Source: Robertkochia sediminum (lineage in GTDB: Bacteria > Bacteroidota > Bacteroidia > Flavobacteriales > Flavobacteriaceae). Taken from it: a DNA stretch of 64,000 nt. Position 1 is the stretch's first letter; every line of letters begins with the position of its first letter. This document shows positions 7,001-37,759 of the stretch, in pieces. The stretch covers positions 62,001 through 126,000 of the forward strand of contig NZ_JADMKT010000062.1 of assembly GCF_016786255.1 (NCBI RefSeq). The letters run 5' to 3'. The translations under genes and the position numbers were made by a program. The notes under the pieces are model-generated. The model saw only the letters and a list, made by a program, of their open reading frames with translations, had not been told where the DNA came from and did no database searches.

Positions 7001-7182
7001 ACTACCTCACAGCGATCAACCAGACCGATAGCCAGATCCCGAGGGTGAATAAAGGTAACAAGGATCGTATAGCAGAACTCAATGCCCAATGGCAGGAGCA
7101 CAAGAAGTTGCTTGATGAGATCAGCGCATCCTCGGAGGAGGTCATGAAGACCATATTTGCACTTTCGCTGGCGGGATACTAA
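4066..7182 (+). CDS. Secreted VPS10/sortilin-like BNR-repeat beta-propeller protein
   Basis: A 1038-residue protein with a signal peptide ([20 protein letters not shown]). At least eleven Asp-box (BNR) signatures are visible, among them [72 protein letters not shown] and SFNGGATW, spread over residues 65-690; they predict one or two sortilin-type propellers. A beta-rich linker and a C-terminal helical segment (about 880-1035, rich in K/E/A) follow. Such proteins are annotated as VPS10 domain-containing or glycosyl hydrolase in Bacteroidota, but no catalytic residues of a known glycosidase are evident, so the enzymatic label should not be trusted. It is likely exported. A TAAATTTA element about 20 bp before the ATG resembles the -7 consensus. 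Confidence 0.88.
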
Positions 7183-7199
7183 TTGATGATAGATTATAA

Positions 7200-7231
7200 A
7201 TGGTGAATGGTGAATGGTGAATGGTGAATGG
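7200..7231. repeat. Tandem heptamer ATGGTGA
   Basis: Four or more head-to-tail copies of ATGGTGA start about 18 bp after a stop codon. The period is 7, so it is not a coding repeat. Compare the runs at 12834, 27000 and 38464. Confidence 0.85.
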
Positions 7232-23745: not shown

Positions 23746-24342
23746 TGAGAGTCAAGAGGCAAGAACAAAGAGCAAACAGGCAAGAACAAAGAGCAAAGAG
23801 GCAAGATTAAAGACAGTTTTGAGGTAATCTATGGGCCACACGGTCCTATTGCTTCGCTATCACCCCAAGGGACAGTGTCGCCTTTTCACCTTCAGACGCC
23901 CTTTCTCGGGAAAACCATCCCGCCCTAACGGGAGTTCTTTCGGTAGGCAGAGCCTCCTTGAGAAGGAAGGAAGAAATTACGACTGCTAAAGGATGTAATA
24001 ATAACTTTGCCGACGTTTAAAGCGTTGACGAAAGGGGTTATTTCCCGTCTGCCCATATACACATTTCCTTACCTTTCAAAGATTGCCACGTCGGAGTTTT
24101 GCTCCCCCTCGCAAAGACATCAACTCCCTATTGCATCGACCGAAGCTTTAGCGAAGGTTGACTTCCCTACCTCCCTACTTCCCTACTTCCCTACTTCCCT
24201 ACTTCCCTACTTCCCTACTTCCCTACTTCCCTACTTCCCTACTTCCCTACCTCCCCACCTCCCCGCCTACCCTCCAACTTCCTCACAACCACCTGGCATT
24301 CAGCACCCCACCAAAAAAAATATCACCTTAAATCCCACCTAC
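23746..24342. other. Intergenic region of simple repeats before hemN
   Basis: No gene is seen. 23753-23815 is a purine-rich tandem (GCAAGAACAAAGAGCAAA words, two to three degenerate copies). 23860-23990 holds short inverted repeats resembling the palindromic elements at 12945 and 20264 in degenerate form. 24162-24250 is the CTTCCCTA array. Confidence 0.75.
24162..24250. repeat. Tandem octamer CTTCCCTA array
   Basis: About eleven head-to-tail copies of CTTCCCTA, mostly perfect, with CTCCCTAC variants at the edges. The same unit as at 7442-7560. Confidence 0.92.
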
Positions 24343-24387
24343 ATGACATATGTCATAGGATGCGGGCGCCTTGCGGTGGTAATTTTA
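24343..24387 (+). promoter_or_regulatory. Fnr-type site and promoter of hemN
   Basis: ATGACATATGTCAT (24343-24356) is a perfect 14-bp palindrome. A -7-like element TAATTTTA (24380-24387) starts 30.5 bp from its centre, which puts the site near -42 relative to the expected start of transcription, the class II activator position. Three sites with the same half-site and spacing occur at 32247, 34688 and 35712. Confidence 0.78.
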
Positions 24388-24403
24388 CCCCAAATTGCCA
24401 ATC

Positions 24404-25768
24404 ATGAGTATCCGTTTAATTGACAAGTACAATGTGCCGGGGCCCAGGTATACCAGTTACCCAACGGTACCTTACTGGGATGGCTCTGGCTTTAATGAAG
24501 ACCTTTGGAAAACACTTTCCAAGCAAACCTTCAAAGCAACCAATGCTTTAGAAGGGATCAGTCTGTATATCCACTTACCGTATTGCGAAAGCATGTGTAC
24601 GTTTTGCGGTTGCCACAAGCGCATTACCACAAGACACGATGTGGAGTCTCCTTATATTGAAGCCGTACTTAAAGAATGGAAGCTTTACGTTGACCTTTTT
24701 GGCGAAACCCCGGTGATCAAAGAGATCCACCTGGGCGGAGGTACCCCCACCTTTTTTTCTGCTAAGAACCTGACGAGACTTATTGAAGGGATCTTTGAGC
24801 ACGCCACCCGTGCCGAAGACTATGAATTTAGCTTCGAAGGCCACCCTAACAACACCACCTACGAGCACCTCAAGGCGCTTCGCGAGGTTGGATTTACGCG
24901 GGTGAGCTTTGGGGTTCAGGACTACTCTCCAGTGGTTCAAAAGGCCATTAACCGTATTCAGCCTTACAACAAGGTGAAAAAGGTTACCGTATTGGCGAGA
25001 GATCTCGGGTACGAGTCTATAAGTCACGACTTGGTTTTTGGATTACCCTTCCAGCACCTGGGTGATATCGTAGACACCATCAACAAGACCATTCCACTCA
25101 TGCCGGACCGCATTGCTTTTTACAGCTATGCCCATGTACCATGGGTAAAAGGGAACGGCCAGCGCGGATTCGATGAGGCCGATATTCCTTCAGGAGAAAT
25201 GAAGCGACAGCTTTACGAAACAGGGAAAGCCCTGTTAAAGGAACTGGGGTATGTAGAGATCGGTATGGACCACTTTGCGCTACCTTCAGACGGCATGTAT
25301 AAGGCCATGGAGAACAACACCCTCCACAGGAATTTTATGGGCTACACCGCCTCCAAGACCTCTCTAATGATAGGACTGGGCGCTTCTAGTATAAGTGATA
25401 GCTGGACGGCATTCGCACAAAATGAAAAGAATATAGAGAAGTACATGACCAAGGTAGACCAGGGCAAGATCCCGGTGTACCGCGGCCATATTCTCAACGA
25501 GGAAGATCTCAAAATTCGCAAACACATTCTCAACCTGATGTGCCGTATGGAGACTTCCTGGAAAGATGAAAATCAGTATTTTGATTTACTTCCGGAAACC
25601 CTGTTGAAACTTGCTCCAATGGAGGAAGATGGCCTTATAGCCATAGGTAAGGATAACCTCAGGATAACGGAAGCCGGAAGGCCTTTTGTACGCAATGTGT
25701 GTATGGCCTTCGATCTGCGTTTACAACGCAATAACCCCGATACCAAGGTGTTCTCAATGACCATCTAA
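24404..25768 (+). CDS. hemN: Oxygen-independent coproporphyrinogen III oxidase (radical SAM)
   Basis: HemN decarboxylates coproporphyrinogen III to protoporphyrinogen IX without oxygen in haem synthesis. This 454-residue protein starts at ATG 24404 (MSIRLIDKYNVPGPRYTSYP, the family's N-terminal block). It has the radical SAM cluster motif YCESMCTFCGCHK, the LGGGTPTFF block, RVSFGVQDYSPVVQKAINRI, and GMDHFALP typical of true HemN rather than HemW. An Fnr-type palindrome lies directly upstream, matching the expected use at low oxygen, and the next genes in the convergent direction encode the haem-containing cbb3 oxidase. Confidence 0.95.
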   Translation: MSIRLIDKYNVPGPRYTSYPTVPYWDGSGFNEDLWKTLSKQTFKATNALEGISLYIHLPYCESMCTFCGCHKRITTRHDVESPYIEAVLKEWKLYVDLFGETPVIKEIHLGGGTPTFFSAKNLTRLIEGIFEHATRAEDYEFSFEGHPNNTTYEHLKALREVGFTRVSFGVQDYSPVVQKAINRIQPYNKVKKVTVLARDLGYESISHDLVFGLPFQHLGDIVDTINKTIPLMPDRIAFYSYAHVPWVKGNGQRGFDEADIPSGEMKRQLYETGKALLKELGYVEIGMDHFALPSDGMYKAMENNTLHRNFMGYTASKTSLMIGLGASSISDSWTAFAQNEKNIEKYMTKVDQGKIPVYRGHILNEEDLKIRKHILNLMCRMETSWKDENQYFDLLPETLLKLAPMEEDGLIAIGKDNLRITEAGRPFVRNVCMAFDLRLQRNNPDTKVFSMTI

Positions 25769-25797
25769 GTATCACGCAAGATCTCATCAATGGTTGG

Positions 25798-25834
25798 CTC
25801 CCCGCTCGGATTTTTTTTCGTCGGGGAGTTTTTT
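25798..25834 (+). terminator. Rho-independent terminator of hemN
   Basis: CTCCCCG (25798-25804) pairs with CGGGGAG (25822-25828), followed by six T. The loop itself contains a T8 run. Confidence 0.85.
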
Positions 25835-26543
25835 ATGGCACCACACAATCCGGGGCCGATTTCACCATTAAGTTCATATCAGAAGGTGAGACATAGGGTA
25901 TACCAAGGCCTAAGCCGCGAAGAATGAACAATACCCCGATAAGGATCACGAAAATGGGAATAAGCCTGCTGAGTTGCGTGCGCAATTTTACCGACAACAC
26001 ATTACCGCTATAGGCAGCTACGCTCATCAGCGGAATGGTACCAAGGCCAAACAAGGCCATATAGAGTCCGCCGCTTAGCACATCGCCCAGGGCGACGGCA
26101 CCGAACAGCGCCATATAAACGAGTCCGCAAGGTAGGAATCCGTTTAAAAACCCGATGGTATACAGGGTACCTGCAGTACGCTTTTTCAAGCGTTCTCCCA
26201 GGGCATTCTTTACCTGACCCACGAGGGTGTAGAAGGGTCGCATGAGGGTTGCAGCGCCTGTTTTCCCGAAATAAGGAACAACAGCGGCCAGGACCATGAT
26301 CACGCCGAGTACTAATGAAAGACGTTGTTGCATGCCCGCGATAAAGAGTCCGCGGCCAATACTACCAAAAAGGAGTCCGATAAGCGCATAGGTCGTTAAA
26401 CGCCCGAGGTGATACCCCATGAGCTGCAGAAATCTTTTAACCGGATTCCCGCGGTCAAGGGGTAACACAAAGGCGATGGGACCACACATACCGAGGCAGT
26501 GTAAACTCCCGAAAAAACCAAGTATAACGGCACTCAGTAACAC
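25833..26543 (-). CDS. TauE/SafE-family (DsbD-TM-like) membrane protein of the cbb3 cluster
   Basis: A 236-residue integral membrane protein with about six helices. It opens with FFGSLHCLGMCGPIAFVLP, whose His and paired Cys are characteristic of the branch of the sulfite exporter TauE/SafE family found beside cbb3 oxidase genes in Bacteroidota, and it contains GFLNGFLPCGLVYMAL in the middle. Members of this branch are suspected in copper handling for oxidase maturation; here that rests on context. The start is GTG at 26543, overlapping the ccoH stop by one base (TAGTG). It is the last gene of the oxidase operon. Confidence 0.85.
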   Translation of the reverse strand: MLLSAVILGFFGSLHCLGMCGPIAFVLPLDRGNPVKRFLQLMGYHLGRLTTYALIGLLFGSIGRGLFIAGMQQRLSLVLGVIMVLAAVVPYFGKTGAATLMRPFYTLVGQVKNALGERLKKRTAGTLYTIGFLNGFLPCGLVYMALFGAVALGDVLSGGLYMALFGLGTIPLMSVAAYSGNVLSVKLRTQLSRLIPIFVILIGVLFILRGLGLGIPYVSPSDMNLMVKSAPDCVVP

Positions 26544-26989
26544 TAATAATTAATGGCTTTCTTTACCAAATAAGACTTCCCTTCGCAGGTCCATCTTATT
26601 TCAATGTTCCAGCGGCCATCCAATAAACGGTCCTTAGGTATGAGCAAATGTGGATCAGACAATGAAATAGCAACCTCAAAGTCTAAATGTTTATTAGATG
26701 GCCTGTAAAGGAACACTTTTCCTTTTATGTCTTCAGGAAGCTGATCTTCCGGAAATACCAGTTCCAGCCCCTCAGCGGTCGGGGTAACGGCCACATCGAC
26801 CCCGGCGTCTTTGGTGAACTTTTCGGTATCTATTTCCTTCTGAAAGTTCAGTTCCTTCTTATAATAATCTTTTGTCACCAATTCGTGCTCCAGACTTTCG
26901 TCGGTCAGGCTACTCACCACGAAGTACATGATGAAGCTGATAAACAGCACGAAGGCGATCACAATTCCGGTTCCCCAATTTATTTTCAT
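26543..26989 (-). CDS. ccoH: CcoH/FixH-family oxidase assembly protein
   Basis: A 148-residue protein with one N-terminal membrane helix (GIVIAFVLFISFIMYFVVSS) followed by a periplasmic beta domain (about 60-145; LELVFPEDQLPEDIKGKVFL, ending in DGRWNIEIRWTCEGKSYLVK). This is the FixH layout; the protein stabilises the assembling cbb3 complex in the inner membrane. The ATG at 26989 is preferred to a TTG at 26998. It is separated from ccoG by 187 bp of repetitive DNA, so it may have a weaker link to the upstream transcript. Confidence 0.88.
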   Translation of the reverse strand: MKINWGTGIVIAFVLFISFIMYFVVSSLTDESLEHELVTKDYYKKELNFQKEIDTEKFTKDAGVDVAVTPTAEGLELVFPEDQLPEDIKGKVFLYRPSNKHLDFEVAISLSDPHLLIPKDRLLDGRWNIEIRWTCEGKSYLVKKAINY

Positions 26990-26999
26990 AGCGCTCAAT

Positions 27000-27176
27000 G
27001 GTTATGCGGTTATGCAGTTATGCAGTTATGCAGTGAAATGACACTCCCAACTAACTACTCCCTCTAACCGTCTTTTCTCTTTACTCTTGACTCTTTATTC
27101 TTTATTCTCCACCCATGAGATTGCCACGCTCACTGCGTTCACTCTTCACTCATATCTCATCTCACATCTCTTCACC
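27000..27176. repeat. Tandem nonamer and simple repeats between ccoG and ccoH
   Basis: 27000-27034 is a run of GCAGTTATG nonamers. It is followed by ACTCTTGACTCTTTATTCTT words (27074-27110) and TCTCATCTCACATCTC words (27150-27176). The repeats interrupt an otherwise compact operon. Confidence 0.82.
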
Positions 27177-28598
27177 CTACCTGTAGCTATGCGGCCCCAG
27201 GAAAGACGTTGTCGTGGTTTCAATAAGTTCGTCTCCACTGTATACGCCCAGGCGAATCTTCATGCGGTCGTCGTCTAACAGGGCCCTGTCGATCTCAACG
27301 AAAAGGGTTCCTTCTGCGAGGCCTTGTTCAGGGATGGTGATCCGGCTTCCGGACACCAATTGCACCTCCCCCTTTAATCCTATAAGCTTGATCTCCACAT
27401 CATCGATCTCCTCGATGGTCTTATTAACGATCTTATAGGTATACACATTAGAGATCATATACTCCCCTTTCATTTCATAGAGTTGCCCCGGCAAACGCAA
27501 TACGGTAGCTTCCACATCATTTCTCAGGAATAGCATCCCAATAAGGACGGCGGTAAGGATCCCTAATACGGCGGTATAGCCTTTCATTCGGGCAGTGAAC
27601 TTAAAGGGCGCCTTTTTCTCTATATTGTCTTCACTGGCATAGCGAATGAGCCCCTTAGGCAGATTCACCGATTCCATGATATGATCACAGGCATCGATAC
27701 AAGCGGTACAATTCACACACTCCAGCTGGGTGCCGTTTCGAATATCGATCCCGGTAGGGCACACATGCACACATTGGAAACAATCGATACAATCCCCATG
27801 ACCCAATGCGTTGCGGTCTTCCCCCTTACGGATCTTTTTCCTTCCGTTCTCTCCTTCCCCTCGAACGTGGTCATAGGCCACTACGATAGATTTATTATCG
27901 AGCAGTACCCCCTGCAAGCGTCCGTACGGACAAGCAATGATGCATACCTGCTCGCGGAACCAGGCAAATACGAAGTAGAACACTGCCGTAAAAATAAGCA
28001 GGGCAATAAGCGTATTTGTATGCGCCATCGGGCCATCGGTAATATAAGTAATGAGCTTGTCGCTACCTATAAGATAGGCCAGGAACACATTGGCAATAAG
28101 AAAGGAAAACACAAAAAAGATAAACCACTTAAAAGTCCGCTTTCTGATCTTCTCGGCATTCCACGCCTGTTTGTCCAGGCGTATCTGCGCCCCACGGTCG
28201 CCTTCGATCCAGTATTCAATACGGCGAAAGACCATTTCCATAAAGATGGTCTGCGGACAGATCCATCCGCAAAATATCCTTCCGAACACTACGGTAAAAA
28301 GGATCACGAATACCACCCCGATGATCATCGAGATCACGAACAGGTGGAAATCCTGCGGCCAGAAAGGAAACCCGAAAATATTAAACCTGCGTTCCAGCAC
28401 ATTGAACATGAGGAACTGGTTGCCATTGATCTTCACGAAAGGAGCCAGTACCAGGATGACGAGTAAAAAATAACTCACATACTTACGGTAATCGTAGAAC
28501 TTTCCGCTGGGCTTTTTCGGATAGATCCAGCTTCGCTTTCCTTCTTCGTTTACCGTTCCTATGGAATCCCTGAATACCTCTTTTCCCTGATCAGTCAT
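27177..28598 (-). CDS. ccoG: CcoG/FixG-type cytochrome oxidase accessory protein
   Basis: A 473-residue membrane iron-sulphur protein needed for cbb3 oxidase maturation; CcoG reduces copper during delivery. Visible motifs are FGRIFCGWICPQTIFMEMVF, REQVCIIACPYGRLQGVLLD, and a ferredoxin-like pair CIDCFQCVHVCPTG and CVNCTACIDACD for two [4Fe-4S] clusters. There are about five to six membrane helices and a C-terminal Ig-like FixG domain (about 380-473). Its ATG lies 35 bp after the ccoP stop in the operon. Confidence 0.95.
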   Translation of the reverse strand: MTDQGKEVFRDSIGTVNEEGKRSWIYPKKPSGKFYDYRKYVSYFLLVILVLAPFVKINGNQFLMFNVLERRFNIFGFPFWPQDFHLFVISMIIGVVFVILFTVVFGRIFCGWICPQTIFMEMVFRRIEYWIEGDRGAQIRLDKQAWNAEKIRKRTFKWFIFFVFSFLIANVFLAYLIGSDKLITYITDGPMAHTNTLIALLIFTAVFYFVFAWFREQVCIIACPYGRLQGVLLDNKSIVVAYDHVRGEGENGRKKIRKGEDRNALGHGDCIDCFQCVHVCPTGIDIRNGTQLECVNCTACIDACDHIMESVNLPKGLIRYASEDNIEKKAPFKFTARMKGYTAVLGILTAVLIGMLFLRNDVEATVLRLPGQLYEMKGEYMISNVYTYKIVNKTIEEIDDVEIKLIGLKGEVQLVSGSRITIPEQGLAEGTLFVEIDRALLDDDRMKIRLGVYSGDELIETTTTSFLGPHSYR

Positions 28599-28633
28599 GG
28601 CGTTCGGGTTTATTGACTATTTATGGTTTCCGT

Positions 28634-29605
28634 TTACTCTTCCTCAACCCCGGCTTCGGCTTCTACAGCCTCTGCCTCAGGTTGCTCAACAGCTACAGAA
28701 TCGGTCACTGCTTCAGCAGGAGCTTCTTCTGTCGCCTCATTGGTCCAGATCTCTTCTCCTTCCGGAGCTTTCGGATTGGCCGGTGTGGTTCCCTGAAGGG
28801 TCAACACATAGCTGGCCACCTGGGCCATTTCCACCGGCTTAAGCACCGAACTCCAGGCGATCATCCCTTTTCCGGAACGCCCACCTTCGGAGATGGTTCT
28901 GAACACATTCTTAATACCACCACCCAGGATCCAGTTGGCATCGGTAAGGTTTGGTCCGATACCCCCACCTCCATCGGCCATGTGACAAGCCACACAGTTG
29001 GTCTGGAAAATGGTTTTTCCTTTGCTGATGTCAGAAGCGTCGGTCAATACCTCAACCGTATTCACATCGATCAGGTCCTTAGCGGTCTTTTTATACTCTT
29101 CGATAGCGATTCGCGCCTCGGTCATTTCCTGCTGGTATTCTGTAGCCTGGTCAGGAGCTCCGATGATATGGAAACGCACCAGGTAGATGGCAGCAAATAC
29201 GATAGACACGTAAAATCCGTACAACCACCAAGGCGGAAGGCTGTTATCCAGTTCCTGGATCCCGTCGTAGTTGTGATCGAGGATGATCTCACCCTCTTCT
29301 TCAATGGGTTTACTCTTGGTGAGTGCCTTATATAATTTTCTGTACCAGGCATTTTCTCTAGCAGCGATCTTTCTGGCCTCCAGCGCTTGTTTCTGCTCCT
29401 CGGTCATCATGGCCTGAGAGATATTGTGCATCGCAGCCAGCATCACCTCGATCCCGATCAGGGTAATGGTAAAGAGTACCAAAAAGAGCGATACTTCCGG
29501 ATATTCTATAAAGGCAGGCTTATCAGAATCGATCATCCACTCGGCCCCAAGAAAGACCAGGGTGACGATTACTATAACTCTTAAATATGATGCAAAGTCT
29601 TTCAT
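28634..29605 (-). CDS. ccoP: cbb3 oxidase subunit III, single-haem CcoP
   Basis: A 323-residue subunit with two N-terminal membrane segments (VIVIVTLVFLGAEWMI and LFLVLFTITLIGIEVMLA), a third at WWLYGFYVSIVFAAIYL, and one cytochrome c domain (about 205-275) with the haem motif NCVACH and axial Met in KGMIAW. Proteobacterial CcoP has two c-type haems; only one CxxCH is present here. The family's segment DGIQELDNSLPPWWLYGFY is preserved. The C-terminal 50 residues are a Glu/Ala tail (EATEEAPAEAVTDS) of unknown use. It abuts ccoQ with 3 bp between. Confidence 0.95.
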   Translation of the reverse strand: MKDFASYLRVIVIVTLVFLGAEWMIDSDKPAFIEYPEVSLFLVLFTITLIGIEVMLAAMHNISQAMMTEEQKQALEARKIAARENAWYRKLYKALTKSKPIEEEGEIILDHNYDGIQELDNSLPPWWLYGFYVSIVFAAIYLVRFHIIGAPDQATEYQQEMTEARIAIEEYKKTAKDLIDVNTVEVLTDASDISKGKTIFQTNCVACHMADGGGGIGPNLTDANWILGGGIKNVFRTISEGGRSGKGMIAWSSVLKPVEMAQVASYVLTLQGTTPANPKAPEGEEIWTNEATEEAPAEAVTDSVAVEQPEAEAVEAEAGVEEE

Positions 29606-29608
29606 TGT

Positions 29609-29788
29609 TTATTCATTTTCTTGGTTGTCTAATGGAAAACGGCTCACCTTGTTGATATAGTCTTTCTTGGCAGAGAACACCCACCAGAAAAGTCCTATAA
29701 AGAACACGAAGAATATCGAGAGGGATATGATCGGATAGATCTCGATCCCGTCTATGGTAGCCATATGGTCTTTTACAAATTTCAACAT
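29609..29788 (-). CDS. ccoQ: Small CcoQ-like oxidase subunit
   Basis: Reading the minus strand from ATG 29788 gives a 59-residue peptide, MLKFVKDHMATIDGIEIYPI followed by one membrane helix ISLSIFFVFFIGLFWWVF and the basic segment SAKKDYINKVS. Size, single helix and position between ccoNO and ccoP fit CcoQ/FixQ, which stabilises the cbb3 complex. It starts 3 bp after ccoNO and ends 3 bp before ccoP. Confidence 0.9.
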   Translation of the reverse strand: MLKFVKDHMATIDGIEIYPIISLSIFFVFFIGLFWWVFSAKKDYINKVSRFPLDNQENE

Positions 29789-29791
29789 GGT

Positions 29792-31996
29792 CTATTCGTT
29801 TTTAGCGGTGAGTTCTTCATTCCCATCTTTCACCTTGATATCGGTTCCCAGGCGCTGTAAGTAAGCGATAAGGGCCGTGATCTCGCGATCTTTCATCTCG
29901 ATGAACGCCTCCCCGCGCGTCTCTGCTGCGCGTTTATCTTCCTCGTAATTCGTCACGAATTCAGGATCACTGTAGAGGTTTTGCTGGATCTGTGCAGCCT
30001 GGGCCTCCATAGACGCCTGGGCATTGGCAATATCCTCATCGGTATACGGCACACCAAGAGTGACCATGGTCTCCATTTTCGCTTCGGTCTGAGAGCGGTC
30101 AAGCGCCCTTCTGAACAACCATTTATAGGCCGGCATGATACTTCCTGCAGAAGTGGTTTGCGGATCGTACATATGGTTCAGGTGCCAGTTGTCAGAGTAT
30201 TTCCCTCCAACCCTCAGCAGGTCGGGACCGGTACGTTTACTACCCCATAAGAACGGGTGGTCGTAAACATATTCCCCGGCTTTGGAATACTCTCCATAGC
30301 GCTCGGTCTCACTTCGGAACGGACGAACCATCTGGGAGTGACATCCCACACAACCTTCGCGGATGTAAATATCACGACCCTCCAGTTCCAGCGGTGTATA
30401 AGGCTTCACACTGGTAATGGTCGGAATGTTCGATTTCACCAATAAGGTCGGTACGATCTGAATTACCCCTCCGATTAGAATAGCAACGGTAGCCAGTACA
30501 GTAAGCTGTACCGGACGTCTTTCTAACCAGGTGTGGAATGGCTCACCGGCAAGACGACCCTTACGCACTTTGGTAAGCGCAGGAGCTTCTGCCAGCTCAT
30601 CTTCAACCTTTGTACCCTGACGGATGGTCATGATCGCGTTATAGATACCAATAAGCACACCGATCAGGTAAAGAGAACCACCAATGGCACGCATCCAGTA
30701 CATCGGAATGATCTGGGTAACGGTTTCCAGGAAGTTACCGTAAATAAGCGACCCATCAGGATTGAACTGCTTCCACATAGACGCCTGGGTAAACCCGGCA
30801 ACGTACATAGGCAGTGCATATATGATAATACCAAGGGTACCGATCCAGAAGTGGAAATTAGCCAGTCCCTTAGAGAATAATTGTGTTTTGAACATCTTCG
30901 GCACCAGGTAGTACATCATACCAAAGGTGAGGAATCCGTTCCATGCCAAAGCACCAACGTGAACGTGAGCGATCACCCAGTCTGTAAAGTGCGCAATAGC
31001 ATTAAAGGTTTTAAGTGAGAGCATCGGCCCTTCGAAAGTAGCCATACCATAACCGGTAATAGCCACTACCATGAATTTAAGAACAGGATCGGTACGCACC
31101 TTATCCCATGCTCCTCTCAGGGTAAGAAGACCGTTGATCATACCACCCCATGACGGAGCGATAAGCATAATTGAGAAGACTACTCCCAGGTTCTGCGCCC
31201 AGTCGGGAAGTGCAGAATATAATAAGTGGTGCGGTCCTGCCCAGATATAGATAAAGATGAGCGACCAGAAGTGCACGATAGAAAGTCGGTATGAGTATAC
31301 CGGCCTGTTGGCAGCCTTAGGCACGAAATAGTACATAAGACCCAGAAAAGGCGTGGTCAGGAAGAAGGCCACGGCGTTATGACCGTACCACCATTGCACC
31401 AGTGCATCCTGTACCCCGGCGTAAGCCGAATAGCTTTTAAGTGCCGATACGGGAAGTTCCAGCGAGTTAAAAATATGTAATACCGCAACAGTAATAAAGG
31501 TTGCCAGATAGAACCATACCGCCACATAAAGGTGACGCTGTCTTCTCTTGAGAATGGTTCCGATCATGTTTACCCCGAATGCTACCCAAACCAGGGCAAT
31601 AGCAATATCGATAGGCCATTCAAGCTCGGCGTATTCTTTTGAGGTCGTATACCCCAGTGGCAGCGTGATCGCGGCCGATACGATGATGGCTTGCCAGCCC
31701 CAGAAATTAAAGTTTGAAAGGGCATCGCTAAACATACGCGCTTTGAGCAAACGCTGTAACGAATAATACACCCCTGCAAAAAGCGCATTACCTACAAAGG
31801 CAAAGATCACCGCATTGGTGTGCAACGGACGAAGACGGCCAAAACTCAGCCAGGAAATTCCGTCGGTAAGGTTAGGGAACACGAACATAAAGGCCAGTAA
31901 AAGCCCAACTAGCATCCCTACAGCTCCCCACAACATTGTCGCGTAGAGAAACTTTTTAACGATCTTATTATCGTAATAAAATTGCTGTACTTCCAT
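29792..31996 (-). CDS. ccoN: cbb3 oxidase fused subunits I and II (CcoN-CcoO)
   Basis: A 734-residue fusion of the haem-copper catalytic subunit and the mono-haem subunit. Residues 1-480 are CcoN with about twelve helices; ligand motifs include QWWYGHNAVAFFL and IWAGPHHLLYSALPD (Cu-B histidines) and DWVIAHVHVGALAWNG (haem histidines). Residues 500-734 are CcoO: one helix (LTVLATVAILIGGVIQIV) and REGCVGCHSQMVRPF (c-haem), with later KWLF as in CcoO. CcoN and CcoO are separate in Proteobacteria, and the fusion is usual in Bacteroidota. The complex reduces oxygen at very low concentration and pumps protons. Confidence 0.96.
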   Translation of the reverse strand: MEVQQFYYDNKIVKKFLYATMLWGAVGMLVGLLLAFMFVFPNLTDGISWLSFGRLRPLHTNAVIFAFVGNALFAGVYYSLQRLLKARMFSDALSNFNFWGWQAIIVSAAITLPLGYTTSKEYAELEWPIDIAIALVWVAFGVNMIGTILKRRQRHLYVAVWFYLATFITVAVLHIFNSLELPVSALKSYSAYAGVQDALVQWWYGHNAVAFFLTTPFLGLMYYFVPKAANRPVYSYRLSIVHFWSLIFIYIWAGPHHLLYSALPDWAQNLGVVFSIMLIAPSWGGMINGLLTLRGAWDKVRTDPVLKFMVVAITGYGMATFEGPMLSLKTFNAIAHFTDWVIAHVHVGALAWNGFLTFGMMYYLVPKMFKTQLFSKGLANFHFWIGTLGIIIYALPMYVAGFTQASMWKQFNPDGSLIYGNFLETVTQIIPMYWMRAIGGSLYLIGVLIGIYNAIMTIRQGTKVEDELAEAPALTKVRKGRLAGEPFHTWLERRPVQLTVLATVAILIGGVIQIVPTLLVKSNIPTITSVKPYTPLELEGRDIYIREGCVGCHSQMVRPFRSETERYGEYSKAGEYVYDHPFLWGSKRTGPDLLRVGGKYSDNWHLNHMYDPQTTSAGSIMPAYKWLFRRALDRSQTEAKMETMVTLGVPYTDEDIANAQASMEAQAAQIQQNLYSDPEFVTNYEEDKRAAETRGEAFIEMKDREITALIAYLQRLGTDIKVKDGNEELTAKNE

Positions 31997-32001
31997 AGTG
32001 T

Positions 32002-32196
32002 TTATTGATTATTATTGCTTGGATCCGATTGTTTAGTGTCGCGTTCATCGGGTATGAGCTCATCTTCAAAAAGCATACGGACGCCAGGCGTATAACTATC
32101 GTCATACTGCCCGCCTCTGACTGCCATTACAAAAGCGACAAAAAAGATCACCGCCACGATAAGGCTTACCGTGATAAGAATATAGATAACACTCAT
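32002..32196 (-). CDS. ccoS: CcoS oxidase maturation protein
   Basis: A 64-residue single-helix protein (MSVIYILITVSLIVAVIFFV, then FVMAVRGGQYDDSYTPGVRM LFED). The segment GQYDDxYTPxxRML is the family signature. The ATG at 32196 is chosen; a longer in-frame start at 32253 would overlap the Fnr-type palindrome. CcoS is needed to insert cofactors into the oxidase. It is the first gene of the ccoS-NO-Q-P-G-H transcript. Confidence 0.93.
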   Translation of the reverse strand: MSVIYILITVSLIVAVIFFVAFVMAVRGGQYDDSYTPGVRMLFEDELIPDERDTKQSDPSNNNQ

Positions 32197-32216
32197 ACCT
32201 ATTAAGAATGCTTTAA

Positions 32217-32260
32217 CAAAATTATTTTTTCTCACCGCCAAAAAACATGACAATTGTCAT
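32217..32260 (-). promoter_or_regulatory. Fnr-type site and promoter of the ccoS-NO-Q-P operon
   Basis: ATGACAATTGTCAT (32247-32260) is a perfect 14-bp palindrome. On the minus strand a consensus -7 element TAATTTTG (32224 to 32217) starts 29.5 bp from its centre, giving a class II activator geometry at about -41.5. The transcript would begin about 16 bp before the ccoS ATG. The site lies between the ccoI stop and ccoS, so the two are separate units. Confidence 0.85.
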
Positions 32261-32267
32261 GACGCGG

Positions 32268-34637
32268 TCATTTTAGCTTTTTTCCCACCCAGGATGTAGC
32301 CAATGTCGTAAAGGCTACCACACTTAAGGAACTAACAGGCATAAGGATAGCGGCTACCACCGGAGACAGGGCTCCTGTAACAGCAAAATACAATCCGACG
32401 ATGTTGTAGAGGAAAGAGAGTATAAAACTCACCTTGATAATGGTCACCGCACTACGTGCAGCCCCGAGGTAGCTGTGTAAATGTTCCAGCTTAGCGGCGT
32501 CGAGTATGGCATCACAGGCCGGGGAGAACACGTTCACGTTCTCGGCGATAGCCACTCCCACATCACTTTGTTGCAGCGCCCCCGCATCATTGAGTCCGTC
32601 GCCCACCATCATGATCTTAGCCCCTTCTTTTTGATGAAAGGAGATATACTCCAGCTTGTCATTGGGCTTCTGGTTGAAGAACATTTGGGTTCCGGACGGA
32701 AGTAATTTTTCGAGGTTGACTCTTTCGCTGTCGTTATCACCGGAAAGCAGAGCCAGGTCGTAATGCTTTTTAAGTTTTCTGAAAAGCTGCGCCATCCCGG
32801 ACCGGTACTTATTGTAGAAGGTATAAGCCCCCTTATACATTTTATTCACCCGGATATGTACGGCAGTTTTTGCGGTAGTGGTTGCCGGCTTTGACCCGAC
32901 AAAATCGGGAGACCCCGCCTTTACCGAGGTATCGCCATACACCCCTTCGACCCCTTTTCCCGTATATTCATTAAAACGATCTAAGGGAAGAACATCAAAA
33001 GGCTCGAGCATCTCATAGAGCTGACGGCTCAAAGGGTGGTTCGAATTTCTCAGGGTTGAGCGCAGTAAACTTTCTTCTTTAGGATCAAGCGCCTCACCCT
33101 CATAACTGATCTCATTGCTGTTTCCGGCAGTAATGGTCCCCGTTTTATCGAATACCACCGTACCCACAGCTGCCATACGCTCGATCACCTGGGCATCTTT
33201 AAGATAGAATTGTTTACGACCGAAAATGCGCAGCATATTCCCTAGGGTGAAAGGGGCGGAGAGCGCCAGGGCACAAGGACAAGCCACAATAAGAATGGCC
33301 GATATCACAGGAATGGCCTTTGATGCATCGATAACATACCAGGTTATCCCTGAAACCAGGGCAATGAGCAAGATCACGATGGTAAAGTACTTACTAATGG
33401 TATTGGTAAGGTCGCGAAAGCGCGTTTTCTTATCGGTTTGAAACACCTCGTTACTCCACAATTGTGTGAGGTAACTCTGAGAAACATCCTTCACCACCTC
33501 AACTTCTATAGCAGCACCCATCTGCTTACCTCCCGCAAAGAGTTGCTCCCCCGAAACCTTTTTTACCGGGTCCGATTCCCCGGTCACAAAGCTGTAGTCT
33601 ACGCGGGCCTCTCCCCGAATGAGGATCGCATCGGCAGGAATAAGCTCTTCATTACGGATCAGGAGTCGGTCGCCTTCCTTTACTTTATAGATATCTACAG
33701 GCTCTTCTTTAGCACCTGCTCCGATACGGGTAACCCCGATCGGGAAATAACTTTTATAGTCTCTTTCGAACGAAAGGTAATCGTAGGTGCGTTGCTGAAA
33801 ATAGCGCCCTAAAAGCAGGAAGAACACCAGCCCGGTAAGACTGTCAAAGAAACCCTGCCCGGTATGGGTAAAGATCTCCCAGGAGCTGCGCAGGAACAAT
33901 ACCGCGATACCCAGGGCAATGGGCACATCGATGTTCAGGATACCGGCGCGAAGGCCTTTCCAGGCCGAAGTAAAATAGGAGGATGCTGCGTAGAACACCA
34001 CCGGCAATGACATACAGAACATGATCGCCCTGAAGAAAGGCTTATACTGATTAAGCCAGAATTCGTCGATCTCAAAATACTCGGGAAAGGAAAGCAACAT
34101 CACGTTGCCAAAGGCAAATCCGGCAACCCCCAGCTTATAGATCAGGCTGCGGTCGGCCTTACCCTTATTCTCTTCGCGATCATCCAGGCTTATATGAGGT
34201 TCGTAACCTATTGTAGAAAGCAGTATGACTAAAGCCTTTAGCCCCAGTTCGTTCTGAAAGGTGATACGGGCCGTTTTCTTCGGAAAGTTCACCTGAGCGC
34301 TACGCACCCGGTGATCCAGCTTATGCAAATTTTCGAGCACCCATATACAGGAACTGCAGTGCATTTGAGGTATATACAGGTTGACGATACTTAATTGTCC
34401 GTCGTCAAAATCAAGAAGTTTTTGCTGAAGGTCGGGATTGTCGAGAAAGTTAAACTTATCGGCTCTGATATCCGGACTGATGCCGGGATTGCGCTCCAGA
34501 TCGTAATATCCGGAGAGTCCGTTGCCTGAAAGGATCTCGTAAACGGTCTTACAGCCGTTACAACAAAACTCCTTATCCTCAAAAATTACCCGATCGTTTC
34601 CGCATTCTACCCCACAGTGATAGCACGAATGATCCAT
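32268..34637 (-). CDS. ccoI: CcoI/FixI-type copper-transporting P-type ATPase
   Basis: A 789-residue P1B ATPase that supplies copper to the cbb3 oxidase. Order of elements: a Cys-rich N-terminus (CYHCGVECGN, then FCCNGCKTVYEIL), a heavy-metal domain with CSSCIWVLENL (about residue 95-105), eight helices, the actuator motif TGESDPV, the ion-path motif CPCALALSAPF, the phosphorylation motif VVFDKTGTITAG and the hinge GDGLNDAGAL. The ATG at 34637 is preferred over 34682, since the DHSCYHCG start is typical and the upstream stretch contains promoter sequence. An Fnr-type site and a -7-like element precede it on the minus strand. Confidence 0.95.
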   Translation of the reverse strand: MDHSCYHCGVECGNDRVIFEDKEFCCNGCKTVYEILSGNGLSGYYDLERNPGISPDIRADKFNFLDNPDLQQKLLDFDDGQLSIVNLYIPQMHCSSCIWVLENLHKLDHRVRSAQVNFPKKTARITFQNELGLKALVILLSTIGYEPHISLDDREENKGKADRSLIYKLGVAGFAFGNVMLLSFPEYFEIDEFWLNQYKPFFRAIMFCMSLPVVFYAASSYFTSAWKGLRAGILNIDVPIALGIAVLFLRSSWEIFTHTGQGFFDSLTGLVFFLLLGRYFQQRTYDYLSFERDYKSYFPIGVTRIGAGAKEEPVDIYKVKEGDRLLIRNEELIPADAILIRGEARVDYSFVTGESDPVKKVSGEQLFAGGKQMGAAIEVEVVKDVSQSYLTQLWSNEVFQTDKKTRFRDLTNTISKYFTIVILLIALVSGITWYVIDASKAIPVISAILIVACPCALALSAPFTLGNMLRIFGRKQFYLKDAQVIERMAAVGTVVFDKTGTITAGNSNEISYEGEALDPKEESLLRSTLRNSNHPLSRQLYEMLEPFDVLPLDRFNEYTGKGVEGVYGDTSVKAGSPDFVGSKPATTTAKTAVHIRVNKMYKGAYTFYNKYRSGMAQLFRKLKKHYDLALLSGDNDSERVNLEKLLPSGTQMFFNQKPNDKLEYISFHQKEGAKIMMVGDGLNDAGALQQSDVGVAIAENVNVFSPACDAILDAAKLEHLHSYLGAARSAVTIIKVSFILSFLYNIVGLYFAVTGALSPVVAAILMPVSSLSVVAFTTLATSWVGKKLK

Positions 34638-34657
34638 AGTTTGCTCAATTACCGAAA

Positions 34658-34701
34658 CAAAAATGAGACTCTCAAATTGCAATTTATATGATTTTTGTCA
34701 T
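34658..34701 (-). promoter_or_regulatory. Fnr-type site and promoter of ccoI
   Basis: On the minus strand the site reads ATGACAAAAATCAT (34701 to 34688), with one perfect and one weaker half. The -7-like element CATTTTTG (34665 to 34658) starts 29.5 bp from the centre, the same spacing as at ccoS. The site lies between ccoI and the divergent fnr gene; on the plus strand the nearest -7-like element (TACCTTAG, 34710-34717) is only 15.5 bp from the centre, so there it would block rather than activate. Confidence 0.72.
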
Positions 34702-34747
34702 GATATTTGTACCTTAGAATTGCAAAACGAACACTTTAGGTATTATC

Positions 34748-35434
34748 ATGAGTAAATGTGAACAGTGTATTATAAGACAGTTCAGCTCACTTAACGCCCT
34801 TAACAAATCAGAACTCATCCGCATTTCCGAGTGCAAGGAGACCGTCACCATTAAGAAAGGTGAAGAGATCTTTCGCGAAGGACAACATCTGGATGGGGTC
34901 TATTGTATCAAATCTGGTATATGCAAACTTACCAAGTTAAGTGACAATGGCCGACAGCAGATCATCAAGTTTGTAAAAACCGGCGACCTCCTCGGGCAAC
35001 GCACGGTTGTTTCAAACGACACCGTTAATCTTTCTGCCATCGCCGTTCAGGACATGGAGGTATGTTTTATTCCCAAACAAGAGATCAATCAGGCTTTTCA
35101 GGAAAATCAGAAGTTTTCCGGAGAGGTGATCAAAGTATTGTGCAATGACCTCAGGGAGGCCGACAACACTATTGTGAGTATGGCCCAAAAACCGGTAAAA
35201 GAAAGGTTGGCTTATTTCCTGCTGCACTTTAATGACGATTTCGGAGTAGACGATGAAGGGTTTCTGGCCGTACAGCTTTCTCGTGAGGAGATCGCCGGAA
35301 TGGTGGGTACTGCAACCGAATCACTGATACGTATGCTTTCTGAATTTGGAAAAAAAGGACTTATCCAAACCAAAGGCAAGCGCATTAAGATCGTAGACAA
35401 TGCCGAACTGGAACGTCTGGCCGAAGGCTTCTAA
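34748..35434 (+). CDS. Fnr-family regulator of microaerobic genes
   Basis: A 228-residue Crp/Fnr protein. The N-terminus has MSKCEQCIIRQFSSLN and further Cys at ISECKETV, VYCIKSGIC and LCNDL, so a redox-sensitive iron-sulphur cluster is possible, although the spacing differs from E. coli Fnr. The nucleotide-binding-like beta-roll covers about 25-145, and the winged helix about 165-225 (LSREEIAGMVGTATESLIRM). The recognition helix keeps Glu and Arg at the Fnr/Crp contact positions (TESLIR), compatible with a TGA core as in the palindromes found here. It lies divergent from ccoI and within 11 kb of all four candidate sites, which makes it the best candidate for the regulator that binds them. 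Confidence 0.9.
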   Translation: MSKCEQCIIRQFSSLNALNKSELIRISECKETVTIKKGEEIFREGQHLDGVYCIKSGICKLTKLSDNGRQQIIKFVKTGDLLGQRTVVSNDTVNLSAIAVQDMEVCFIPKQEINQAFQENQKFSGEVIKVLCNDLREADNTIVSMAQKPVKERLAYFLLHFNDDFGVDDEGFLAVQLSREEIAGMVGTATESLIRMLSEFGKKGLIQTKGKRIKIVDNAELERLAEGF

Positions 35435-35711
35435 ACACAAATTATCCTATATAAACAAACCGGGAGGAAGGTGTAAAATCACCCTCCTCACGCTTGGTTA
35501 TTTTACACTACACCCAAAATTTCTCACTGTTCTCCCCCCGAATCCCGATTGGGAAATTCTCAAAATCATCCCATTATTCACTCCTGAATTTGTTAAAATC
35601 TACTTTTTTTAGAGTTTTTTCTGCATTAATCGAAAGCGTTTGCGACATCGCTTAACCCACCTAATCACTAGGGTTTTAGGCATTTTGCAGGGTCTTCCGT
35701 ACAATACCTGC
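35435..35711. other. Intergenic region after fnr
   Basis: No gene is seen. An imperfect hairpin (GGAGG..GGTG with CACC..CTCC, about 35461-35490) follows the fnr stop without a clear T run. The rest is A+T-rich. Confidence 0.6.
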
Positions 35712-35755
35712 ATGACAAAAGTCATATTTTAACTATAACTGTGTTTTCATCTTTG
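35712..35755 (+). promoter_or_regulatory. Fnr-type site and promoter of the YceI-porin unit
   Basis: ATGACAAAAGTCAT (35712-35725) is a near-perfect palindrome. A -7-like element CATCTTTG (35748-35755) starts 29.5 bp from its centre, identical in spacing to the ccoS and ccoI promoters. The expected transcript starts about 25 bp before the ATG at 35785. Confidence 0.82.
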
Positions 35756-35784: not shown

Positions 35785-36372
35785 ATGAAACACACAGAAA
35801 CACCCCGATTTGCCTTTTTGGCCGCCTTAATGACCATGTTGTTCGTTGGGACCTCTGTATTTGGTCAAACCTACACCTTAGATAATACGAAATCGGAACT
35901 CACGATTTTCGGAACTTCTAATATTCACGATTGGGAGATCACCGTAGAACAGCAGGAAGGGAAGATCACCTTCAATGCCGGAGAAACACCAACAGTTACC
36001 GGAATGGAGATCAGCATTCCTGTGGAGAGCCTGAAAAGTGGTAAGTCCGGTATGGACAAGAACACCTACAAGGCGATGGATACCAAAAAACACAAGCTGG
36101 TAACCTTCACCCAAACAGGCGATGCGACCTTAACCGCTGCAGGGGAAAACACCTGGAAGGTTAAAGCCAAGGGCGACCTGACCATTTCCGGCGTTACCAA
36201 AGCATCTGAACTCGAGTTTACCTTAAAGGTTGCTAACGGTAGCCTTATGCTTAACGGTGAGAAGTCGATCGACATGACCGCCTTCAATGTAGAGCCACCA
36301 ACGGCGCTACTGGGCACGATCACCACAGGGAAAGACGTAACCCTGAAATTCAACACTGTACTTTCAAAGTAA
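35785..36372 (+). CDS. YceI-family periplasmic lipid/quinone-binding protein
   Basis: A 195-residue secreted protein (signal FLAALMTMLFVGTSVFGQ) with the YceI lipocalin-like barrel: YTLDNTKSELTIFGTSNIHDW, then MEISIPVESLKSGKSGMDKN, KVKAKGDLTISGVTK and a final VTLKFNTVLSK. YceI proteins bind long isoprenoid lipids such as quinones, but their physiological roles are mostly open. The ATG at 35785 is preferred to TTG 35779. It is preceded by an Fnr-type site in activator position and followed by a porin gene after 46 bp without a visible terminator, so the two are probably co-transcribed. Confidence 0.92.
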   Translation: MKHTETPRFAFLAALMTMLFVGTSVFGQTYTLDNTKSELTIFGTSNIHDWEITVEQQEGKITFNAGETPTVTGMEISIPVESLKSGKSGMDKNTYKAMDTKKHKLVTFTQTGDATLTAAGENTWKVKAKGDLTISGVTKASELEFTLKVANGSLMLNGEKSIDMTAFNVEPPTALLGTITTGKDVTLKFNTVLSK

Positions 36373-36418: not shown

Positions 36419-37759
36419 ATGAGAACACTTTTATCTAAAATTCTTGTAGTTACTCTGTCCCTGACCGGACTGAGCATGTTCGCACAACAACGCGATCTAT
36501 CTAATTTCCGTGCTCCTGACCAACGTGGTCTGCACGTATTCGAAGCTCCTAAAGACTCTGTTCAGGAATTCGATGGCGTAAAAGTTCGTGTAGGTGGTTC
36601 ATCTACCCTGCAATTCCAAGGACTTAGCCATGAGAATGCCTGGGAAAATGCACAAGTAGGAGACGCCGGAATTCCTGATCAGGATGCACTTGATCAATTA
36701 CAGTTGATCGGTATCGAAAGCAACTTCAACCTGGCTACAGCTAACCTCGACCTCGATGTGCAGCTGGCTAAAGGTTTAAGAATGCACTTGAGAACATACC
36801 TTTCTTCTCGTCACCACCCGGAACCATATGTAAAAGGTGGGTACTTCCTGATCGACGATCTTGGATTCATCAGCGAAGGTTTCATGGAAAACCTGATGAA
36901 GTACGTAACCATTAAGATCGGTCACATGGAGAACAACTACGGTGATGCGCACTTCAGAAGATCAGACAACTCTGCTGCCATCTACAACCCATTCGTAGGT
37001 AACCTCATCATGGATGCCTTTACTACTGAAGTAGGTGCAGAAGTATACTACAGAAGAGGCGGATTCATCGGAATGCTCGGAGTATCTAACGGTAAACTGA
37101 ACCAGTCTGTTGTTGAGTCTGACACTAAGCCTTCTTTCCTTGCGAAGTTAGGATATGACAACTACGCTACAGGAGACGATTTCAGATTCCGTTTAACAGG
37201 TTCTGTTTACACTACTTCTGAGTCTTCAAGAACATACCTTTACGCTGCAGACCGTGCAGGTTCAAGATACTACCTGGTGCTGGAGTCTGTGAAAACTAAC
37301 GGAAGAGGAGGATTAGCCGGAACTAACCCAACCAATCAGTTCAGATCAGGACGTTTTGATCCGGGATTCAGCAACGAGCTTACTTCCTTCATGTTCAACC
37401 CATTCCTGAAAAAAGGCGGACTTGAGTTTTTCGGTACTGTAGAACTATCAAGCGGTAAGAGCAACAGAGAATCAGCAACCCGTAACGCTACTCAGTTAGC
37501 CGGTGAGCTTATCTACAGATTCGGAACTAACGACGACATCTACGTAGGTACCCGTTACAACACAGTAAACGCTGAGCTCGGTTCAGGAGATGTAGATATC
37601 AACAGATTCAACCTTTCTGCAGGATACTTCTTCACTAAGAACATCCTTGCAAAACTGGAGTACGTGAGCCAAAACCACGACGGTGACGGATATGCCGGAA
37701 CTAAATATCAGGATGGTTCTTTCAACGGAATCATGATGGAAGCCGTTATTAGCTTCTAA
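36419..37759 (+). CDS. Outer-membrane porin-like beta-barrel protein
   Basis: A 446-residue protein with a signal peptide (ILVVTLSLTGLSMFAQ) and many amphipathic strands (for example FNLATANLDLDVQLAKGLRM, VGAEVYYRRGGFIGMLGVSN, RFRLTGSVYTTSE, YVGTRYNTVNAELG), ending in MMEAVISF with a C-terminal Phe, the usual outer-membrane insertion signal. Motifs such as IKIGHMENNYGDAHFRRSDN resemble the phosphate-selective/OprO-type porin group, but the substrate is unknown. Codon choice looks restricted and uniform, as in highly expressed genes. It lies between two YceI genes and has a strong terminator 45 bp downstream. Confidence 0.85.
   Translation: MRTLLSKILVVTLSLTGLSMFAQQRDLSNFRAPDQRGLHVFEAPKDSVQEFDGVKVRVGGSSTLQFQGLSHENAWENAQVGDAGIPDQDALDQLQLIGIESNFNLATANLDLDVQLAKGLRMHLRTYLSSRHHPEPYVKGGYFLIDDLGFISEGFMENLMKYVTIKIGHMENNYGDAHFRRSDNSAAIYNPFVGNLIMDAFTTEVGAEVYYRRGGFIGMLGVSNGKLNQSVVESDTKPSFLAKLGYDNYATGDDFRFRLTGSVYTTSESSRTYLYAADRAGSRYYLVLESVKTNGRGGLAGTNPTNQFRSGRFDPGFSNELTSFMFNPFLKKGGLEFFGTVELSSGKSNRESATRNATQLAGELIYRFGTNDDIYVGTRYNTVNAELGSGDVDINRFNLSAGYFFTKNILAKLEYVSQNHDGDGYAGTKYQDGSFNGIMMEAVISF

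Follow-up and report, generated by a model that had tools for sequence, protein, structure and literature searches.

In a 64,000-nucleotide stretch of the Robertkochia sediminum genome (contig NZ_JADMKT010000062.1, positions 62,001 to 126,000; hereafter, the window), four promoters, those of hemN, of the cbb3 oxidase cluster beginning with ccoS, of ccoI and of yceI, carry a palindromic operator at nearly the same distance from the promoter box, and a gene for an Fnr-like protein lies among them. We consider it likely that this adjacent protein binds these sites and activates from them, as a regulator of low-oxygen respiration genes. The model, whose binding, activation, autorepression, cluster and oxygen-sensing steps we infer from the sequences, is as follows. 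The Fnr-like protein (34748-35434) would be active at low oxygen, its activity depending on an oxygen-labile Fe-S (iron-sulphur) cluster held by C4, C7, C53 and C106. Active Fnr would bind ATGAY-N4-RTCAT palindromes, and at ccoS-NO-Q-P-G-H, ccoI and yceI (about -41.5) and at hemN (-42.5) the dimer would activate in the class II manner by touching RNA polymerase, the activated promoters carrying a TAnnTTTG -7 box. Since fnr diverges from ccoI and shares its operator, Fnr bound there would also sit over the -33 region of the fnr promoter and so cap fnr expression. More broadly, we lean slightly towards the view that the protein represents a Bacteroidota lineage of the FNR type, in which one ligand would have moved from the N-terminal loop to the beta-roll (C4, C7, C53, C106) and the DNA specificity would have shifted (a half-site with A at position 1, read by a helix E-S-x-I-R). 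Such a lineage would drive cbb3 from -41.5 at promoters unlike those of E. coli and limit itself through the ccoI operator, its operators having passed to a PAS-kinase/REC-CRP pair in some lineages.

The spacing of each operator was taken as the distance from the palindrome centre to the first base of the TAnnTTTG-like box. Three promoters share a spacing of exactly 29.5 bp: ccoS (operator ATGACAATTGTCAT, 32247-32260; -7 box TAATTTTG, 32217-32224; both on the minus strand), ccoI (operator ATGACAAAAATCAT, 34688-34701; -7-like box CATTTTTG, 34658-34665, lacking its first T; both minus) and yceI (operator ATGACAAAAGTCAT, 35712-35725; -7-like box CATCTTTG, 35748-35755; both plus). The hemN operator (ATGACATATGTCAT, 24343-24356, plus strand), also present in many relatives, is centred 30.5 bp from its -7-like box (TAATTTTA, 24380-24387, plus). 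The original prediction had listed these four palindromes and boxes, spaced by 29.5 or 30.5 bp, and all were found as written. ATGACN4GTCAT is exact at three of the four sites and has one mismatch at the ccoI site, and the inner four-base cores read ATAT, AATT, AAAA and AAAA. When one mismatch is tolerated, the window holds seven copies of the palindrome; 100 dinucleotide shuffles gave 1.90 +/- 1.24 and never as many as seven. In E. coli, -41.5 is the class II position of CRP and FNR. A genome-wide map of transcription starts in Flavobacterium psychrophilum places TAnnTTTG at -12 to -5 (PMC9723704); in that register the 29.5 bp spacing corresponds to -41.5, and the 30.5 bp of hemN to -42.5. 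With this borrowed register, the window sites are supported as candidates with class II activator geometry, and the predicted position near -41.5 is also backed by the conservation and the genome-scale spacing peak described below. A second near-palindrome with a three-base core (ATGACGCGGTCAT, 32247-32271, plus strand) overlaps the ccoS operator; it is probably due to chance, because the flanking bases differ in R. marina.

We compared the window with 109 other fnr loci, nearly all from Flavobacteriaceae and most from Flavobacterium, with a few species represented twice and one locus (L037) from another family, taking from each the fnr-ccoI intergenic region and, where present, the region upstream of ccoS. 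A site was counted when at least 8 of 10 positions agreed, and a box when nAnnTTTG stood at exactly 29.5 bp. Among 103 distinct loci, the ccoI promoter has the site in 100 and the box in 90; for ccoS, the site is present in 74 of 75 promoters and the box in 73. Conservation extends to hemN, a close homologue of which is found in 24 of 40 genomes: 18 of these 24 promoters have the site and 12 have the box. Several promoters that fail the exact count miss it by a single base or carry an imperfect box. We saw a yceI gene adjoining fnr in three more genomes, all congeneric, with the site at 29.5 bp in each. We also scanned 200 bp, with looser scoring, upstream of 20 further ccoS or ccoN genes, 8 belonging to the same family and 12 to other families within the order; the site lies at 29.5 bp in seven and at 30.5 bp in six (13/20, about 0.4 being expected from base shuffles), and at locus L241 it lies further upstream than the scan reached. 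Tandem operators 22 bp apart were seen before ccoS at L248, L250-L253 and L258. In these six genomes of other families (G048, G059, G039, G049, G055 and G042) the second site lies exactly 22 bp upstream, at about -63.5, and this upstream member scores higher as a palindrome than the one at -41.5.

At the genome scale, a peak about 30 bp upstream of the box, for which the original prediction had proposed a test, was found. We searched 37 genomes for ATGACN4RTCAT followed by AnnTTTG within 8-38 bases, which allows 31 spacings. Of 99 site-plus-box matches, 61 fall at 29.5 bp and 10 at 30.5 bp, every other spacing having at most four, and the reversed pattern gave 36 matches in all; the nominal binomial probability of the peak, 1e-64, ignores relatedness and is descriptive. 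The 26 genomes counted as having a four-cysteine Fnr (G037 by similarity only) have 55 of their 81 matches at 29.5 bp, against 1 of 9 in the nine genomes with neither Fnr nor cbb3 and 5 of 9 in two other genomes. The half-site is short, and in the R. sediminum genome (3.53 Mb, a draft of 82 contigs) the exact ATGACN4GTCAT palindrome occurs seven times while its reversed control occurs three times, so one could ask whether the palindromes are simply chance matches near promoters. We give this explanation practically no chance: one exact spacing is kept in about a hundred loci and recurs as the 29.5 bp peak, and the conservation had already refuted it. In addition, three of the seven exact palindromes fall within these 11.4 kb of the 3.53 Mb (binomial 1.2e-6). 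None of the other four has a perfect TAnnTTTG at 29.5 bp; two have TAnnTTAG there, and one has TATGTTTG at 30.5 bp.

The original prediction had spoken of a local regulon, and this part of it did not hold. When the 44-base pattern of site plus box was searched with up to two mismatches, the genome gave 30 matches against 3 for the reversed pattern, some palindromes being counted on both strands; a pattern found only at this locus was rejected on this count. We viewed 16 sites elsewhere in the genome (15 stretches, L284-L298), namely 15 mismatch-tolerant matches and one before moeA at 30.5 bp. Ten genes downstream could be named by Pfam: moeA, a rhodanese, a sulphur transporter, Usp, CBS, flavodoxin_5, a ribosome-hibernation factor, PPDK, a YgaP-like protein and a FadL-like protein. 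Most of these sites have two mismatches, some overlap short open reading frames and two have no downstream open reading frame within reach, and we treat all 16 as candidate regulon members only.

Two of the four window boxes had been said to begin with C instead of T as a mark of promoters that need an activator. This does not generalise, because the ccoS promoter shares the site and yet begins with T: a first T is present in 74 of 74 ccoS boxes (one of them, L098, without a real site) and in 2 of 99 ccoI boxes, the window's ccoI box being of the majority type that lacks it (97/99). We therefore rejected a missing first T as a general trait of activated promoters; it is promoter-specific. The remaining fixed bases, A2 and TTTG, stand in almost every box of both sets. 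We infer that the ccoI promoters are weaker or more dependent on an activator, presumably the same one, than those of ccoS. The two promoters, otherwise alike, one with T at -12 and the other almost never, offer a natural experiment on the -12 base with an activator at -41.5.

Read on the other strand, the ccoI operator faces fnr. The probable fnr -7 box (TACCTTAG, 34710-34717, plus strand) starts 15.5 bp from the operator centre, with equally scored boxes at 7.5 and 20.5 bp in the window. Searching 7.5-31.5 bp at 101 loci, we found the best TAnnTTTG at 15.5 bp in 48 and at 16.5 bp in 27 (75/101), and the best box is a perfect TAnnTTTG in 76 of the 101. A dimer on the ccoI operator would thus occupy the fnr promoter from about -34 to -21, from which we predict that fnr represses itself through the shared operator.

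The regulator itself belongs to the CRP/FNR superfamily: PF00027 and PF13545 score over their cut-offs, and its AlphaFold2 model (mean predicted local distance difference test score, pLDDT, 74.7; below 50 for residues 1-24) matches CRP/FNR structures with Z of 20-25. It is 84-86% identical to the Fnr of two congeneric genomes and scores below the cut-off of the NCBIfam Fnr model (102.6 vs 228 bits). Canonical FNR has CX2CX5C and a distal cysteine (C20, C23, C29 and C122) and binds TTGAT-N4-ATCAA, its dimerisation being governed by an oxygen-labile [4Fe-4S] cluster. Aligned to A. fischeri FNR, the window protein has C4 and C7 as the CxxC and C106 as the distal cysteine, with Ser13 in place of the third cysteine and C53 opposite an alanine. 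Its helix, TATESxIR, keeps E191, I194 and R195 in every one of the 106 distinct close sequences, where A. fischeri FNR reads E-T-I-S-R in the alignment and the canonical pattern is E-x-x-S-R, and its sites read ATGAY-N4-RTCAT. The label 'Fnr-type' needs a qualifier, as both cysteines and site are non-canonical. Conserved sites stand before hemN, the cbb3 genes and fnr itself, as would be expected of an FNR-like regulon, and by what could be tested the protein appears to work like an FNR. Its putative assignment to these sites has been strengthened by the divergent site (100/103 loci), by its cysteine set and by its co-occurrence with cbb3. Among the four proteins read of the five Crp/Fnr matches in this genome, only the window Fnr has CxxC, C53 and C106, and a four-cysteine Fnr is present in 37 of 44 genomes with cbb3 against 2 of 16 without it (Fisher 6e-7, ignoring relatedness, with G037 counted by similarity only).

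One could also imagine that the regulator binds and activates like FixK, its cysteines holding no oxygen-labile cluster, so that it would not itself sense oxygen and would respond through zinc, a disulphide or its own amount. One canonical ligand is indeed missing (Ser13), and PMC2908626 classes members of the mixed FNR-FixK group as FixK when any one of the four canonical cysteines is absent, a rule by which the window Fnr would be a FixK. Moreover, two genomes of one family (G040 and G053) encode homologues without any of the four. Nevertheless, we regard a regulator blind to oxygen as unlikely. C4, C7, C53 and C106 are invariant in all 106 close sequences and in all 27 further homologues read, with identities of 36-58%; 13 of the latter belong to the same family and 14 to other families, to other classes or to the phylum at large. 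They are the 27 new sequences read among 45 matches, and 158 of the 198 genomes searched gave no match at 1e-30. The comparison also took in 40 Crp/Fnr paralogues, hand-chosen from the match list and so not a random sample. Of 173 proteins, 143 have CxxC, C53 and C106, and seven have a loop cysteine (+8/+9), CxxC and C106 without C53; just CxxC and C106 are present in three, C106 alone in four, and none of the four cysteines in 16. A loop cysteine is found in 0 of the 143, and together with C53 in 0 of the 173. This mutual exclusion points to C53 as the probable fourth cluster ligand of the lineage, although the 143 proteins are one lineage and so represent few independent events. The homologues of G040 and G053 lack all four cysteines at once, which also speaks against a regulator blind to oxygen; these two proteins (L209 and L211) keep the recognition helix and are encoded about 3 kb from ccoN. 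Given an invariant alternative fourth cysteine, the FixK criterion may therefore misclassify the window Fnr and, if our reading is true, the usual four-cysteine rule mislabels this group as blind to oxygen.

Several observations weigh against activation by Fnr from these operators. In the window, hemN has the 30.5 bp spacing and a box ending in A, and 7 of the 24 hemN promoters have no convincing site plus box, as 7 of the 20 further ccoS/ccoN promoters show no site at 29.5 or 30.5 bp within the scanned 200 bp. Four genomes counted as having Fnr (G037, G039, G042 and G049) give no strict-pattern match at 29.5 bp, and the 44-base count is much weaker in four congeners (14 vs 11, 11 vs 7, 25 vs 10 and 24 vs 16, pattern against reversed). 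The structural model, of low confidence in residues 1-24, gives no reliable position of the CxxC relative to C53. One Rhodobacter table has FnrL activating its own gene, in contrast to the autorepression that we predict for fnr. Finally, four genomes with cbb3 and without a close Fnr (G011, G026, G031 and G035) keep the ccoS site at 29.5 bp, so another regulator can use such a site. That regulator, the main rival of Fnr for these sites, could be a REC-CRP response regulator, phosphorylated by a neighbouring PAS histidine kinase, the FixL/FixJ/FixK system being folded into two proteins, and it might bind the window sites mainly or in addition to Fnr. Such a pair is encoded in this genome (L299, contig C68; kinase 4848-6188, REC+cNMP+HTH_Crp 6185-7231), a like pair in G011 and a REC-CRP in G026, while a similar helix is found in paralogues of G031 and G035. 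The REC-CRP helix, E-S/T-L/F-I-R, resembles that of Fnr, and a displacement of FNR by FixK has been proposed for Caulobacter (PMC2908626). We hold control by REC-CRP here to be quite improbable, as the conserved divergent site adjoins fnr and this genome's REC-CRP lies on another contig. Moreover, the inner core of the ccoS site has G or C in three of the four Fnr-less genomes against 1 of 74 Fnr loci (L098, which has no real site), and this difference favours Fnr for the window sites. Joint control by Fnr and REC-CRP may nonetheless occur.

With Fnr as the favoured regulator, the system can be set beside known ones. It shares with FNR and FnrL of Proteobacteria (E. coli FNR, Rhodobacter FnrL) the CRP/FNR fold, the N-terminal CxxC with a distal cysteine and a 14-bp palindrome with a 4-bp core. 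Its gene content also matches a known core, since the listed targets of R. sphaeroides FnrL overlap with it, including ccoNOQP, hemN, uspA and fnrL (PMC2908626 and PMC4634722); for R. capsulatus, hemN is absent from the direct targets listed. In contrast, the window Fnr has Ser13 for the third cysteine with C53 invariant instead, an A at position 1 of the half-site, a helix E-S-x-I-R as against E-T-I-S-R in A. fischeri FNR, and promoters with the Bacteroidota TAnnTTTG box. As cysteine set, site and promoter type all differ, we do not file it as a canonical FNR. The FixLJ-FixK systems similarly run low-oxygen genes from FNR-like sites, but FixK, which is expressed under the control of FixJ and does not sense oxygen itself, lacks at least one canonical cysteine by the rule of PMC2908626, whereas the window Fnr has four invariant ones, one of them relocated, and the REC-CRP paralogue of this genome is the closer analogue of FixLJ/K. 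In F. psychrophilum, oxygen limitation strongly raises the cbb3 oxidase and also raises haem-synthesis enzymes, with TAnnTTTG promoters (PMC9723704); the main text of that paper contains no occurrence of 'fnr'. The top structural match is the Crp/Fnr protein 2gau of P. gingivalis (Z 25.2, root-mean-square deviation 2.7 over 216 residues, matches within 1 of that Z counting as tied), which differs in having a non-cysteine at the residue aligned to C53. The papers listed in literature searches, several of these lists being capped, name no oxygen regulator for the cbb3 oxidase in Flavobacteriaceae, though low oxygen induces cbb3, and nothing on point was listed on REC-CRP in flavobacteria or on the FNR/FixK helix. 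New beside the earlier reading are the departures from the canonical cysteines and site, the part of the ccoI operator that concerns fnr, and a REC-CRP paralogue with possibly similar sites. As operator, spacing and regulator are all conserved, the question is experimentally tractable.

The genes named in the original prediction were largely borne out by family searches and gene order. On the plus strand, hemN (24404-25768; TIGR00538 over cut-off) encodes an oxygen-independent coproporphyrinogen III oxidase. The ccoS-NO-Q-P-G-H cluster follows on the minus strand, beginning with ccoS (32002-32196; by size, position and conserved order) and continuing with a ccoNO gene for fused cbb3 subunits I and II (29792-31996; NF011053 and TIGR00780 over cut-off), a ccoQ-like gene for a small protein of 59 amino acids (29609-29788; by size, position and conserved order), ccoP (28634-29605; PF14715 and PF13442, TIGR00782 below cut-off), ccoG (27177-28598; TIGR02745 over cut-off) and ccoH/fixH (26543-26998; PF05751). 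A gene for a DsbD_2 (CcdA-like) membrane protein closes it (25833-26543, minus; PF13386, conserved order). The ccoI-type P-type metal ATPase gene (32268-34637, minus; PF12156, PF00122 and PF00702), with a likely ATG at 34637, diverges from the plus-strand fnr gene, and a gene for a yceI-domain protein lies beyond (35785-36372, plus; PF04264). The label 'porin' for 36419-37759 was not borne out, Pfam and NCBIfam giving no match there. Lastly, about 13 tandem copies of ACTTCCCT occupy 24161-24263, upstream of the hemN operator at a distance of about 80 bp.

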